Assembly (NCBI GenBank): GCA_029934915.1
Contig: JAOZLI010000197.1
Span: 1-5,042 of the forward strand
From: Desulfocapsa sp.
Lineage (GTDB): Bacteria > Desulfobacterota > Desulfobulbia > Desulfobulbales > Desulfocapsaceae
Reading direction: 5' to 3'
DNA: 5,042 nt
Part shown: positions 1 through 4,889 of the stretch, one piece after another
How positions within the stretch are numbered: position 1 is the first letter of the stretch
How the letters are laid out: each line of letters opens with the position of its first letter
Made by a program: the position numbers and the translations under genes
Notes under the pieces: generated by a model
The model's database searches: none
What the model saw: the letters and a program-made list of their open reading frames with translations, nothing else
What the model was told of the DNA's origin: nothing

Positions 1-1092
1 CATGAATTTATGGTTCTTGCCGATACAGGTGAGGATACGCTTGTGATCTGTTCTGCCTGTGACTATGCCGCAAATAGTGAAAAAGCGGCTGTCGCAGCAC
101 CCAGTGTAGATGAGACTGAAATGCTACCACTCGAAAAAGTTGAAACACCCGGCAAACGCAAGGTTCCTGCTGTCTGTGAATTTATGAAGATCGAGCCGCA
201 GGAACTTGTGAAAACCATGGTCTATAAAACGGATGAGGAGACAGTTGCTGTTCTTGTTCGCGGAGATCGTGAGGTACAGGAAGTGAAGCTTAAAAATCTT
301 CTTGGTGGTACGGATGTCGAGATGGCCGATGATAAAGAGGTCTTTGATGCAACCGGGGTTCCCACCGGATATCTTGGACCCGTTGGTATCACAGTAAAAC
401 TTCTTGTTGATCAGGAGGTCGCGGCCATGAAAAACTTCGTGGTTGGCGCCAATGAAAAAAACTTTCACATGATCAATGTCAATTTTGGTCGTGATTTTGA
501 GGCTGCAGAAGTCGCAGATCTTCGTCAGATAAGTCCGGAAGATCCATGCCCCTCCTGTGGCGGCAAGCTCAACCTGAAAGAAGGCATAGAGGTTGGTCAC
601 GTTTTTAAACTGGGCACCGGGTATTCAGAATCCATGAATGCAGTCTATCAGACCAAAGATGGTAAAGACAAACATATGGTCATGGGCTGTTACGGCATTG
701 GGGTTAGTCGCATTGTGGCTGCAGCCATTGAACAGAACCATGACGAAAACGGGATGATTTTCCCCATGCCCCTGGCTCCTGTGCAGGTTATTTTACTGAA
801 CCTTGGTTTGAAAGATAAGCAGATCACGGAAACCACCGAAGCCTTGTACACAGAATTGCAGGAACAAGGTGTAGAAGTCCTGCTCGATGATCGTGACGAA
901 CGTCCAGGGTTCAAGTTTAAGGATGCTGATCTCCTGGGCATTCCCCTGCGTGTCACCGTGGGCAAGAGCTTAACTAAAAATGGCGTAGTTGAATTGCGTC
1001 ATAGAAAGGATGGAACCACCGAAGAACTGGTTCCTGAAAAAATAACAGAACGATTGCTTGAATGTATTCAGGCAGAAATAAATCATGGCTAA
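1..1092 (+). CDS. proS: Prolyl-tRNA synthetase (class II), C-terminal part, 5'-truncated by window edge
   Basis: Cytoplasmic enzyme that attaches proline to tRNA-Pro. The reading frame is open from base 1 (first residues HEFMVLADTGED), so the ATG at 10 is internal. About 200 N-terminal residues, with class II motifs 1 and 2, are missing compared with the usual bacterial length near 570. Numbering from the first visible codon: residues about 50-180 are the inserted YbaK-like editing domain that clears Ala-tRNA-Pro, with a Lys in LVKT (about 71) and the GYLGPVG loop; a CPSCGG pair follows near 183-186; motif 3 appears as MGCYGIGVSRIVAAAIEQ (about 228-245); the anticodon-binding domain fills the rest, with the hallmark DDRDERPGFKFKDADLLGIP (about 296-315). 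The TAA stop at 1090-1092 lies inside the relA start region, an 8-base overlap. Family assignment is very secure. Confidence 0.97.
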   Translation, partial: HEFMVLADTGEDTLVICSACDYAANSEKAAVAAPSVDETEMLPLEKVETPGKRKVPAVCEFMKIEPQELVKTMVYKTDEETVAVLVRGDREVQEVKLKNLLGGTDVEMADDKEVFDATGVPTGYLGPVGITVKLLVDQEVAAMKNFVVGANEKNFHMINVNFGRDFEAAEVADLRQISPEDPCPSCGGKLNLKEGIEVGHVFKLGTGYSESMNAVYQTKDGKDKHMVMGCYGIGVSRIVAAAIEQNHDENGMIFPMPLAPVQVILLNLGLKDKQITETTEALYTELQEQGVEVLLDDRDERPGFKFKDADLLGIPLRVTVGKSLTKNGVVELRHRKDGTTEELVPEKITERLLECIQAEINHG

Positions 1093-3247
1093 AGAACTTA
1101 CTGTCATGCTTAACCCGGAAGGATTAAAGATCCTGACCCGGAGTTATCTGAGTGGAACAGATCTGCAGGTTATAGATAAGGCTTGGGATCTTGCTGTTTC
1201 CGTTCATACAGACAAGACACATTTTTCTGGAACTCCTTATCTTGATCATACGTTGCAGGTGGCTTCAACACTTGCCTCCATGCATCTTGATCTTGACACC
1301 ATTGTTGCGGGGCTTCTGCATGGGGTTCTCAAAGAAGGTGTTGAATTAACAAGCTTGCGCAAAGAATTTGGGGATAGTGTTGCGAATATTGTAGATGGCT
1401 CCACACGTATCGCTAACGTCCATTATAATTCAAAACTGACTCACCAGGCAGAGAACGTTCGAAAGATGCTGCTTGCCATTGCCAGTGATATCCGAGTGCT
1501 ATTGGTTAAACTGGCAGATAGGCTTCAGGATATGTGTGTACTGGACACTGTGGAGCCCATTGCTAGAAGGGAAATCGCTCGTGAAACCAAAGATCTATAC
1601 GCTCCTTTGGCGTCTCGCCTTGGTATTGACTGGCTCAAACGTGAGCTTGAGGATCTTTCTTTTCAGTTTCTTCACCCCGAGGAATATTCAGAGCTTGTGT
1701 CAAAGCTGGAAAGCTCCCTTGAAGAACGACAAGACTACGTTGATGAAGTGATCTCGATTCTTCATGGAAAACTGGGCGAAAACGGCATTAGTCCCACCCG
1801 TATTCTTGGTCGCCCTAAACATCTCTATTCCATCTATAAAAAACTGGTTGTGCAGCAGATCCCCCTGGAGCGTGTGTACGATAAGGTCGCTTTTCGTATT
1901 ATCGTAAATACTGTGAACGAGTGTTACGAAGCACTCGGCGTGATACACGCAAACTGGTCACCTGTTCCCGGCCGGATAAAGGATTTTATCTCTGTTCCAA
2001 AGGCGAATAACTACCAGTCCATGCATACCACCGTTGCTGGTCCCCGCGGGCTTTTTATTGAGATTCAAATTCGAACCGAAGAGATGGATCGTATCGCTCA
2101 GGAAGGTGTTGCCGCACACTGGGCATATAAAGAAGGACAAAGCGCTTCTGATACCGATAGCAGGCTTTTTAAGCGTTTGAAAAGTCTTGTGAAAAATCTG
2201 CAGGAGGTGGAAGATCCAGGAGAATTTCTTGAATCTGTTCACGGTGAACTCTATGCCCATGAGGTCTACGCCTTAACTCCAGCTGGAGAAGTAAAAGAGC
2301 TTCCTGAGAATGCCAGCCCTATAGATTTCGCCTACGCAATTCACACCGAGGTGGGGGATCATTGTGTGGGGGCTAAGGTGAATGACAGGCTTGTTCCCCT
2401 TAAATATCAGATAAAAAATGGAGATATCCTGGAAATTGTTACTTCCAGGAAACAGCGCCCCCGTAGAGGATGGCTGGATCTGGTGAAAACCAGCCGTGCC
2501 AGGTCTCGTATTCGTTCATGGTTACGTAAAGAAGAACGGGAGAAATCTCTTAATCTTGGTCGTGAAATTTGTGAACGGGAATTAAAACGCTACGATACGA
2601 CCTTGAAAAAGATGGTGAAGAGCGGGCATGTTAAACACCTTTTAAAGGATCTGCACTGTAATTCTCTGGAAGATATGCTGGCTAAAGTTGGTAGTGGTAT
2701 GATCACCATCCCAACGCTCGTAAAAACGCTGCAACCTACCGAAATGCAGAAAGAACGAGATGTTTCGTCGGTTGCTGCAGATACATCGCCTCAGCGAAAA
2801 ACGGCGTCGTCTGGCCCTGGTATTGTAATTGAGGGGGTGGATGATATTCTGGTGAAAATCAGCCGCTGCTGTAATCCTGTTCCTGGAGATCCTATTATTG
2901 GTTTTATCACCAGTGGTCGTGGAGTTTCCGTACATAAGAAGACCTGTGTGAATCTGCTCTCCACCGATCCGCAGCGTTGGATTGATGTTGAATGGTCTGC
3001 AACTACCCAAGCCGGGCACAGGGTTGAAATTCAGGTCAGTGCTGAAAACAGCAAAGATATTTTTTCGGCGATCAGTTACTCAATTAGTAGTGATGATGCA
3101 AGTATTGTTGAAATTTCTGCGCATATTACACCCACCGATACTGCCGATTTTCATATTGCTCTTGAAGTAGAAAATTTGGAACATCTGGAAAAAATATTAC
3201 AGAATTTGCGACAGATGAAACAGGTTATTATGGCAAGAAGGGCGTAA
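1085..3247 (+). CDS. relA: RelA/SpoT-family (p)ppGpp synthetase with a degenerate HD hydrolase domain
   Basis: Long RelA/SpoT homologue, 720 aa, the normal full length; it transfers pyrophosphate from ATP to GDP/GTP to make the stringent-response alarmone. Domains in order: HD hydrolase-like (about 30-175); synthetase (about 225-345) with GRPKHLYSIYKK at 242-253, catalytic Asp266, RIKD at 297-300, Tyr310 and Glu326 in EIQIRT; TGS (about 392-453) with His420 in the tRNA-end contact region; helical region; zinc-finger domain with Cys595, Cys596, His617, Cys621; ACT (about 640-717). In the HD part His55, His79 and Asp145 remain, but the HD pair is His-Gly (79-80), the usual Glu-Asp is Lys-Glu (83-84), the Asn after the metal Asp is Asp149, and the guanine-stacking Arg is His46. 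Hydrolysis is therefore probably lost (inference). The ATG overlaps the proS stop by 8 bases and has only a weak ribosome site, suggesting translational coupling. A bifunctional Rel is the alternative reading, disfavoured by these substitutions. Confidence 0.95.
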   Translation: MAKELTVMLNPEGLKILTRSYLSGTDLQVIDKAWDLAVSVHTDKTHFSGTPYLDHTLQVASTLASMHLDLDTIVAGLLHGVLKEGVELTSLRKEFGDSVANIVDGSTRIANVHYNSKLTHQAENVRKMLLAIASDIRVLLVKLADRLQDMCVLDTVEPIARREIARETKDLYAPLASRLGIDWLKRELEDLSFQFLHPEEYSELVSKLESSLEERQDYVDEVISILHGKLGENGISPTRILGRPKHLYSIYKKLVVQQIPLERVYDKVAFRIIVNTVNECYEALGVIHANWSPVPGRIKDFISVPKANNYQSMHTTVAGPRGLFIEIQIRTEEMDRIAQEGVAAHWAYKEGQSASDTDSRLFKRLKSLVKNLQEVEDPGEFLESVHGELYAHEVYALTPAGEVKELPENASPIDFAYAIHTEVGDHCVGAKVNDRLVPLKYQIKNGDILEIVTSRKQRPRRGWLDLVKTSRARSRIRSWLRKEEREKSLNLGREICERELKRYDTTLKKMVKSGHVKHLLKDLHCNSLEDMLAKVGSGMITIPTLVKTLQPTEMQKERDVSSVAADTSPQRKTASSGPGIVIEGVDDILVKISRCCNPVPGDPIIGFITSGRGVSVHKKTCVNLLSTDPQRWIDVEWSATTQAGHRVEIQVSAENSKDIFSAISYSISSDDASIVEISAHITPTDTADFHIALEVENLEHLEKILQNLRQMKQVIMARRA
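3245..3247 (+). repeat. Left TAA flank of the palindrome (putative target duplication), also the relA stop codon
   Basis: TAA immediately before the first base of the palindrome, matching TAA immediately after its last base (3426-3428). Identity of a three-base flank can be chance, but here removing one copy plus the palindrome gives a sensible compact gene junction, which is the main argument for a target-site duplication. Confidence 0.5.
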
Positions 3248-3425
3248 GGGCTCGGTAAGAAATAACTTGGACTTTCCAATTCGTAACTGTACCACACCTT
3301 CAGCCGATTATTTATTTTCGCAATCCTCACGTAGCCAGCTACGCTGCGGTTTCAAAAATAAATAATCGACTGAATCTGCAGCACATTTACGACTGAAAAT
3401 GTCCAAGTTATTTCTTTCCGAACCC
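3248..3425. repeat. 178-bp imperfect palindrome, MITE-like element
   Basis: Two 88-base arms (3248-3335 and 3338-3425) are inverted copies of each other around a 2-base centre, CA at 3336-3337. Aligned without any gap, 67 of 88 positions agree by hand count. The best blocks are AGAAATAACTTGGAC near the outer ends (3258-3272 against the right-arm complement 3401-3415), TCGATTATTTATTT-type sequence in the middle (right arm about 3354-3367), and the CGTAGC/GCTACG tip. Outer ends read GGG...CCC. No coding sequence of its own is apparent. Symmetry to the base, flush placement against the relA stop and identical TAA flanks fit a small non-autonomous mobile element or a REP-like dispersed repeat; a simple large transcription terminator is less likely, since no T-run follows the stem. 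In RNA it would fold into one long hairpin between relA and the Smr gene. Confidence 0.8.
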
Positions 3426-3428
3426 TAA
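3426..3428 (+). repeat. Right TAA flank of the palindrome (putative target duplication)
   Basis: Second copy of TAA, directly after the right end CCC of the palindrome. It merges into the AAGGAG ribosome site of the Smr gene, so the similarity to the left side extends to TAAGG (3245-3249 and 3426-3430). Confidence 0.5.
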
Positions 3429-3433
3429 GGAGA
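3427..3433 (+). promoter_or_regulatory. Shine-Dalgarno site of the zinc-ribbon/Smr gene
   Basis: AAGGAGA, near-perfect complement to the 16S rRNA 3' end, 5 bases before the ATG at 3439. It fixes the start codon. It begins only two bases beyond the palindrome end, so the foot of the RNA hairpin would sit right beside it and could affect ribosome access (inference). Confidence 0.85.
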
Positions 3434-3438
3434 ACTGA

Positions 3439-3894
3439 ATGTCGCTTTGTCAAATCTGTGGCAACACTATCGATAGTGATTGTAGCCGTTGTCCGTACTG
3501 TCACAGTATACTGGAGGCAGACGAACCACAACAGCAATCGAAGGCAAGATTTTACCAGAAGATTGTAAATATAGAGGATGGTCTTCCCACAGTGGAACAG
3601 GCTCTTGCGCGATTGCAAAGTGAGTTGCATGCTGCCAGTCAGGAAAAAATTCGTGTTTTGACCCTTATTCACGGCTATGGCTCCACCGGGAAAGGTGGGG
3701 CGATTCGTCTGGAATGCAGGAAAACACTCGATTATCTCAAAGGGCTTGGGGATGTTCACACTGTTATCTATGGTGAGAATTTTAACCGGAAAAATGGCCC
3801 TACCAGGCATATCTTGAGCAGATTTTCAGAGCTTTCCCGGCATCCCCACTTCAATCACAATAATAAGGGCATTACTCTGGTTCAAATGTACTGA
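3439..3894 (+). CDS. Small zinc-ribbon and Smr-domain protein
   Basis: A 151-residue cytoplasmic protein. The N-terminus is a compact zinc ribbon, Cys4-x2-Cys7 and Cys18-x2-Cys21 with an extra Cys15. A Gln/Ser-rich linker follows (about 27-38), then a Smr-type domain (about 41-103): a helix from TVEQALARL, strand RVLTLIHGYG and the glycine loop HGYGSTGKGGAIR (78-90). The tail, with GENF near 112-115, TR at 122-123 and a final NKGITLVQMY, resembles the conserved ending of short stand-alone Smr/MutS-family proteins. Smr domains bind nucleic acid and some are endonucleases or act on stalled ribosomes or mRNA. Here the usual LDLHG box is replaced by VNIEDG (43-48), so nuclease activity cannot be assumed. 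The start has a strong ribosome site. Without the palindrome the gene would sit 10 bases after relA, suggesting original operon membership. The domain call is good; the exact role is unknown. Confidence 0.85.
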   Translation: MSLCQICGNTIDSDCSRCPYCHSILEADEPQQQSKARFYQKIVNIEDGLPTVEQALARLQSELHAASQEKIRVLTLIHGYGSTGKGGAIRLECRKTLDYLKGLGDVHTVIYGENFNRKNGPTRHILSRFSELSRHPHFNHNNKGITLVQMY

Positions 3895-4136: not shown

Positions 4137-4889
4137 ATGAAACGAATTGCAGGAATCGCATTACTGGCATGTTTGACCGTTCCCGGCACGATGCAGGCGG
4201 CAGAAAAAACAGTTGAACTGGAAACGTTTAAAGATAAACTGAGCTACAGTATGGGTTATGATATGGGAACCTACCTGAATAGTGTTGGTGATGATCTGGA
4301 TTATAATACGCTCATTATTGGTTTGAAAACTGGATTTGATGGTGGGGAATCAATTCTTCCTCCCGAGGAAATGCAGACAGTACAAAAAGAATTTGCTCAA
4401 AAAATGAAAGTTAAGCAGGAAGAAGAATTGAAGGTGTTGGCTGCTGAAAATAAAACAGCAGGGGATACATATCTTGCGGAGAATAAAAAGAAAGAAGGTG
4501 TAATTGTAACCGAAAGTGGCTTGCAGTACGAGATTGTTGAAGAAGGGAAGGGGGAATCTCCTCAAATGATTGATACTGTAACTGTCCATTACAAAGGAAC
4601 CACTATTGATGGTTCTGTTTTTGATGATTCCAGTAAGCGTGGTGAGCCCGCAAAGTTTGGCGTGGGGCAGGTTATCCCAGGTTGGAGTGAAGTATTGCAG
4701 CTTATGAAAGAAGGCTCAAAGTATCATGTTACTATCCCACCGGCTCTAGCCTACGGTGAACGCGGCGTACCACCAATGATTGGTCCAAATTCCGTCCTTG
4801 TTTTTGACGTTGAGCTGGTTGCTATCGAGAAGGTAGATGCCGGGGCTGTGATGCAAAGAATGATGGAAGGTGGCGGTGGCCAACAATAG
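4137..4889 (+). CDS. Exported FKBP-type peptidyl-prolyl cis-trans isomerase (Mip/FkpA type)
   Basis: A 250-residue folding catalyst that speeds cis-trans isomerisation of Xaa-Pro bonds, here outside the cytoplasmic membrane. Residues 1-21 are a signal peptide: MKR, a hydrophobic stretch IAGIALLACL, and likely cleavage near MQA-AEK. A Cys at 12 (LLAC) faintly resembles a lipobox but lies very early. Residues about 30-95 match the FKBP N-terminal dimerisation domain (KLSYSMGYDMG), followed by a long charged helix (about 80-120). The FKBP domain is about 128-231 and keeps the pocket residues known from FKBP12: Tyr152, Phe162, Asp163, Phe174, Val179, Ile180, Trp183, Tyr206 and Phe223, so it should be active. 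The C-terminus is a short Met- and Gly-rich tail ending GGGGQQ. The V-shaped dimer of the Mip/FkpA family is expected. The gene stands 242 bases from the Smr gene and probably heads its own unit with the small gene downstream. Confidence 0.94.
   Translation: MKRIAGIALLACLTVPGTMQAAEKTVELETFKDKLSYSMGYDMGTYLNSVGDDLDYNTLIIGLKTGFDGGESILPPEEMQTVQKEFAQKMKVKQEEELKVLAAENKTAGDTYLAENKKKEGVIVTESGLQYEIVEEGKGESPQMIDTVTVHYKGTTIDGSVFDDSSKRGEPAKFGVGQVIPGWSEVLQLMKEGSKYHVTIPPALAYGERGVPPMIGPNSVLVFDVELVAIEKVDAGAVMQRMMEGGGGQQ

Follow-up and report, generated by a model that had tools for sequence, protein, structure and literature searches.

A 178-bp palindromic MITE at the relA stop codon of a Desulfocapsa genome, with an interior apparently related to hairpin elements of two phyla

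The window, i.e., the whole stretch of 5,042 nucleotides analyzed here, is contig C232 of a Desulfocapsa sp. genome of 3.06 Mb (606 contigs, 83% complete). It carries a relA/spoT-type gene and a co-directional Smr-domain gene, with a palindromic element between them (Table 1). The placement proposed in the initial annotation was exact, the first base of this element lying directly 3' of the relA stop codon TAA, with a second TAA following its last base.

Table 1. Features of the window. Family A and covariance model R2 are described in the text.
Feature	Position	Strand	Remarks
Prolyl-tRNA-synthetase-type gene			End only in the window; named by its domains
relA/spoT-type gene	1085..3247	+	Domains HD, RelA_SpoT, TGS, ACT
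Left target-site duplication TAA	3245..3247		relA stop codon
Palindromic element, family A	3248..3425	+	178 bp
Left terminal inverted repeat	3248..3274	+	27 bp
Conserved interior	3282..3394	+	45.6 bits with covariance model R2, family A being left out of its training
Central hairpin CGTAGC-CA-GCTACG	3330..3343	+	Within core AATCCTCACGTAGCCAGCTACGCTGCGGTT
Right terminal inverted repeat	3399..3425	-	
Right target-site duplication TAA	3426..3428		
GGAG, ribosome-binding-site-like	3429..3432	+	Adjoins the duplication; 6 bases 5' of next start codon
Smr-domain gene	3439..3894	+	Frame intact; domain score just above family cut-off
FKBP-type gene	4137..4889		

The element is composed of two arms of 88 bases each (3248-3335 and 3338-3425), in a gap-free register around a CA center (3336-3337). 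This architecture was indeed described correctly at the outset, whereas the symmetry is not base-exact as then stated: Watson-Crick complementarity links 67 of the 88 positions and leaves 21 unpaired. By comparison, arm pairing in 10,000 mononucleotide shuffles had a mean of 22.4 and a maximum of 39. Stable folds were predicted both for the element as single-stranded DNA (z = -10.7) and for the RNA of the element region (-80.4 kcal/mol, z = -9.3), none of 200 shuffles being equally stable in either case. None of the ORFs of at least 60 aa was confined to the 178 bp. Terminal inverted repeats in family A, to which this element belongs, extend over at least 23 bp. The flanks do match, as had been noted, and the duplicated target consists of the three bases TAA, not of TA, the shorter reading then offered.

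A search of the source genome with the element returned nine full-length copies, each exactly 178 bp long, on nine contigs. Their 3-bp flanks are identical in eight cases (TAA in four, TTA in three, TAT in one), the ninth copy lying between TTT and TTG; multiple copies with such flanks had been foreseen for a mobile element. Ends of this kind also delimit seven shorter forms (51-82 bp), three of them with identical flanks, and solitary ends are present as well. The end pattern, allowing up to two mismatches, has 41 matches in this genome, vs. none for the reversed pattern. Surroundings are unrelated for the window and C487 copies, which differ at one of 178 bases, as they are for the C54 and C404 copies, which do not differ at all. 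At the C60 copy, an upstream ORF terminates at the duplicated TAA, so that, with the window copy, two of the nine use a stop codon. Marks of mobility are thus carried by eight of the nine full copies, from which movement itself may be inferred. The near-identical copies at unrelated sites, the identical flanks and the element-free relA junctions of relatives (see below) agree with the earlier view of a small non-autonomous element. By every feature tested, the element is a MITE, with an unusual conserved interior and with no parental transposase found in the source genome.

This interior was also found elsewhere. The core around ACGTAGCCAGCTACG gave separate matches in the source genome, constituting a second family, B, with six copies of 179-181 bp (contigs C528, C414, C404, C45, C450, and C415; loci L272-L277). 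Their ends, GGAACGGGGACRAAATAAC or GGGAATGAAAAAC-like, are unlike those of family A, and their 3-bp flanks are identical in three of the six (TAA, TTA, TAC). On C415, the family B element lies directly against a short derivative of family A, with one TTA common to both. From 91 collected elements, 31 were chosen by hand for variety; they come from families A and B of the source genome, from genus relatives, and from Anammoxibacter and Planctomycetota, and they can be aligned from end to end without a break (alignment A1). Pair-keeping changes on both sides were observed for 35 of 51 consensus pairs, 92.1% of the cells being paired, and covariation reached 0.430, whereas shuffles gave 0.150 and sliding the partners never more than 0.119. 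When family A is left out, covariation is seen in 21 of the 26 interior pairs (28 sequences). In alignment A3, the U-G pair of columns 43/72 is invariant across all 28 of these interiors, which hints that the RNA itself or a sequence-specific binder matters. The unpaired words CATCTT on one side and AAATCTG on the other, together with the AATCC...GGTT core, are retained in many elements of both phyla. Rfam 15 gave no match at the gathering score, the window yielding three microRNA matches far below it and seven other loci nothing at E values up to 0.1.

Two covariance models were employed: R1, limited to the interior and trained with family A included, and R2, built without family A. At E ≤ 1e-5, R1 detected the interior in at least 31 genomes out of 395 sampled from the source phylum, including the source genome, and in 23 of 245 genera; in the Anammoxibacter phylum, from which 392 genomes were sampled, R2 detected it in at least 15, Anammoxibacter included. 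These counts are lower bounds, since each scan covered a sample of a larger group, with at most nine candidates scored per genome. R2 found all 12 family A sources given, in a held-out test that was not wholly independent because the phylum loci used in R2 had been found via R1, itself trained with family A. Elements of the source phylum have very different ends, including GGGACATGACAAGGACC, GGGCCTGTCCACCAATAACC, and GGCGAACGGCAACAAATAAAT. Clear ends starting with GG were found at 13 of 29 loci examined in this phylum, with identical flanks (TAA, TTA, or TAT) in eight of these 13, as placed by a boundary routine that rewards equal flanks and that gave a wrong length or poor ends at several loci, one of them at a contig edge. 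These 13 entered the comparison of ends and interiors given below. In the Anammoxibacter phylum, 14 loci were inspected; the flanks are identical (TAA or TTA) at four of them, and two loci were unplaceable. Clear ends of the element type are missing from the weakest matches (G518, G556, and G051 as well as G659, G832, G843, and G1028, among others); in the four genomes of the Anammoxibacter phylum with the weakest matches, the ends are of another kind. At L345, L346, and L347, weak R2 matches in the latter phylum, the core is enclosed by inverted repeats of an entirely different sequence, in which the word GCAGSCCGT occurs. Four loci in other genera of the order (L367, L368, L369, and L371) hold double-hairpin repeats of about 100 bp, with ends GGGGCCGTYAAGAAATAACTTG and a TTA left flank. 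Phages and plasmids, considered as carriers, gave no match in viral_contigs (exact patterns), plasmids, or phages. The interiors appear to be related across families, as members of a widespread hairpin MITE superfamily in two phyla. No description of this superfamily was found in searches of open-licence papers.

Part of this similarity may be due to palindromy itself. If the element were an ordinary MITE, arm copying and shared ends could mimic homology and covariation between families, and arm-to-arm copying could indeed produce covariation without selection. In line with this, the palindromes are scored by R2 on their other strand as well (28.8 bits for the window), which indicates that part of its score reflects palindromy, and family A interiors are just 37-54% identical to others among the pairs listed. 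However, arm copying would erase the unpaired words, and their retention across phyla argues against it as the sole source of covariation. On 170 kb of other loci, R2 moreover gave only two matches at E ≤ 10, one of 33.7 bits, corresponding to a G002 element that appears decayed by eye, and one of 10.8 bits. Lastly, the window element and an Anammoxibacter element have ends that are 96% identical around interiors that are 46% identical; by contrast, family B shares with the same Anammoxibacter element 69% of the interior (69-70% between B and Anammoxibacter interiors) and 58% of the ends. We therefore regard the reading as an ordinary MITE with a partly palindrome-driven interior similarity as unlikely. 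Since identities at ends and interiors run in opposite directions in these two comparisons, ends and interiors appear to differ in history. It is plausible that one arm of the palindrome templates the other, a new end thus spreading to both sides.

Concerning the origin of the ends, a scan of genome_contigs with the element end returned at least 104 stretches. The matches listed include two Planctomycetota assemblies, Candidatus Anammoxibacter, one Chlamydiae, and two Desulfobulbaceae assemblies. Among these listed matches, 93 end pairs are spaced by 40-260 bp, 62 of them by exactly 180 bp; their 3-bp flanks are identical in 69 pairs (TTA in 36, TAA in 22) and unequal in 24, and the next 3 bp outward are identical in only three of the 93. 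In the two Desulfobulbaceae, CSMAG_1653 (L172) and bin100106 (L209), the end leads into a contig-end gene fragment and not into a palindrome. The window end has 26 of its first 27 bases in common with CSMAG_1653, in the same order, and 25 of 27 with bin100106; when three elements of the source genome were scored against the bin100106 end, the alignment was limited to bases 1-27. Such an end-only match of 27 bp is what is classically seen between a MITE and its parent. Both fragments match only the C-terminal end of the ISAzo13 transposase (Pfam PF07592, 249-279 and 286-308; NCBIfam NF033519), with scores below the cut-offs of both families, these matches being weak because the pieces are short; the bin100106 fragment is frameshifted. 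No complete insertion sequence with GGGYTCGGNAAGAAATAACTTGG ends was found, only these contig-end fragments. The transposase with matching ends that the initial annotation had called for is therefore represented by ISAzo13 C-terminal fragments in two other genomes of the order, and by none in the source genome.

A PF07592 transposase was indeed not detected in the 606 contigs of this 83% complete genome, which lowers any claim of present activity; it should be noted that repeats tend to drop out of fragmented assemblies. Within the order, 26 of 257 genomes contained PF07592, one of them being G007, which belongs to the source genus. In five named genomes bearing this end, among the matches listed, it scored above the cut-off in three and below it in two. 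ISAzo13 right ends, placed by eye and leaning partly on the flank, close in 24 of 29 cases with CC then TAA or TTA, shortly past the transposase stop, and both ends were located for only two insertion sequences (L234 and L243), in a search demanding identical flanks. The ISAzo13 copies of two planctomycete genomes and of Anammoxibacter have ends unlike those of the elements there, so that we only infer mobilization by ISAzo13 enzymes. Taken together, the element ends are likely recognized by ISAzo13-type transposases. At L235 (2469-2648), in a planctomycete genome, an element lies directly behind an ISAzo13 insertion sequence end, with a TTA common to both. A derivation of the interior from the insertion sequence was rejected, R1 having matched, on both strands of 29 ISAzo13-related loci, only the neighboring MITE of L235.

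A different mode of mobility, that of a REP/BIME-type element moved by a RAYT (Y1) transposase, was also considered. The element is indeed a dispersed palindrome with a GTAG word in its core, and GTAG/CGTC REPs are likewise dispersed palindromes, reported from several phyla including Planctomycetes in the available part of PMC3733652. According to the same source, however, these REPs are 20-40 bp long, carry an unpaired tag, and are linked to tyrosine transposases or to no known one, whereas the present element is 178 bp long, has long terminal inverted repeats with 3-bp duplications, holds its GTAG inside a paired central stem without an unpaired tag, and has ends that match ISAzo13-bearing fragments. 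A REP/BIME origin is accordingly quite improbable.

We consider it very likely that the palindrome is one of nine full MITE copies, for which an ISAzo13-family transposase probably acts in trans, and that a TAA was probably duplicated upon insertion, the relA stop codon being one of its two copies. In such a mechanism, the transposase would bind the 27-bp ends and cut at the outer GG/CC, and the cut ends would be joined to a TAA or TTA target opened by a staggered cut, so producing the 3-bp duplication. Both frames would remain unchanged because TAA is itself the stop codon and because GGAG and the smr start lie outside the element. The interior would represent a separate conserved hairpin module placed behind many different ends, the ends probably following the resident transposase and the interior probably being kept for its fold. 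Going further, the element may be defined by its interior and not by its ends, as a core-keeping hairpin parasite of at least two phyla, whose terminal repeats are exchanged to suit the ISAzo13-type transposase of the host, arm templating arm and both ends thereby changing at once. This last proposal is tentative, and we lean somewhat against it.

At the relA-smr junction itself, empty orthologous sites were observed, as expected for an insertion: the element is absent from 18 of 18 genus relatives compared, 17 of these loci reaching smr and one stopping before it, and R2 gave no match in the 18 junctions. A 19th genus locus (L117), which ends inside relA, was left out of this count. A small gene lies between relA and smr in most genus relatives (L099-L116) and in neither the window nor G001; that of L100 resembles Phd/YefM antitoxins, just under the family cut-off. 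The relA protein of the window ends in ...MARRA, the same as its G014 orthologue, which indicates that TAA works as an ordinary stop and agrees with the earlier statement that the insertion reuses it without altering the protein. The locus is thus a MITE insertion in which the relA and smr frames are both intact. Distribution among relatives is patchy, DNA matches to the element (E ≤ 0.001) being found in 10 of 56 relatives, source genome included; of the 93 family genomes, seven have the end pattern, and all seven belong to the source genus. In G002, of the same genus, an element that appears decayed by eye (L112, 4871-4985) lies about 400 bases downstream of smr, flanked by TAA. A single copy at a conserved position, initially proposed as the sign of a native structure, is not what was observed here. 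A native regulatory hairpin of the relA-smr transcript (attenuator, processing, or stability element) would account for a strong RNA fold between two co-directional genes that are adjacent in 17 of 18 genus loci (the remaining locus ending before smr), but it is a very improbable reading, given 18 orthologous junctions without the element, nine copies at unrelated loci, eight of them with target duplications, and no terminator-like or promoter-like site in 3150-3560. A terminator-like U tract was likewise not found. An ancestral native attenuator at relA is ruled out by the empty orthologous sites and the many copies. The inserted MITE may nevertheless affect relA-smr expression: if the two genes are co-transcribed, it would form a long hairpin between them in the mRNA, with possible effects on RNA processing.

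Several known systems resemble this element. The MITEs of Candidatus Thiomargarita nelsonii, as described in the available part of PMC4853749, are likewise palindromic, hairpin-forming, and present in many copies, their parental insertion sequence not being found; the 10-bp direct repeats of the hupL family and the TATA(G)-type ends of the dsrA family set them apart, by description. No such element is described in the portion available of PMC9208149, the only paper found to mention both ISAzo13 and MITEs. In the accessible text of a review on prokaryotic MITEs, where ISAzo13 is not named, copies of Chunjie, a MITE of Geobacter uraniireducens, measure 178 to 235 bp, and one of them lies in a phosphate-uptake operon called disrupted (PMC10969869). 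Chunjie could be a relative. Geobacter belongs to the same phylum as the source organism, and the structure of the operon was reportedly kept. The ISAzo13 insertion sequences (PF07592, NF033519) have in common with the element GG...CC ends of one type, apparently TAA/TTA flanks, in many cases an AATAAC-like subterminal word, and one end over 27 bp; by contrast, the element has no transposase gene, and only the ends are common, not the interior.

The preference for TAA or TTA illustrates a way into an operon for such an element, by insertion at a stop codon with both proteins left unchanged; two of the nine copies lie at a stop codon. Prokaryotic MITEs are described, in what is available of the same review, as short, non-coding, often intergenic elements with terminal inverted repeats, flanking direct repeats, and a stable stem-loop, moved in trans, a description that fits the present element, for which movement in trans is likely; they are also described as decayed transposable elements, whereas here the interior appears conserved across families and phyla (PMC10969869). 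This would be the opposite of the usual picture, with an interior fold that outlives the ends across phyla. Bacterial MITEs are usually viewed as decayed insertion sequences, the ends of which are the sole working parts. If the present reading is true, some MITEs form independent lineages whose structure is under selection, and its role becomes testable.
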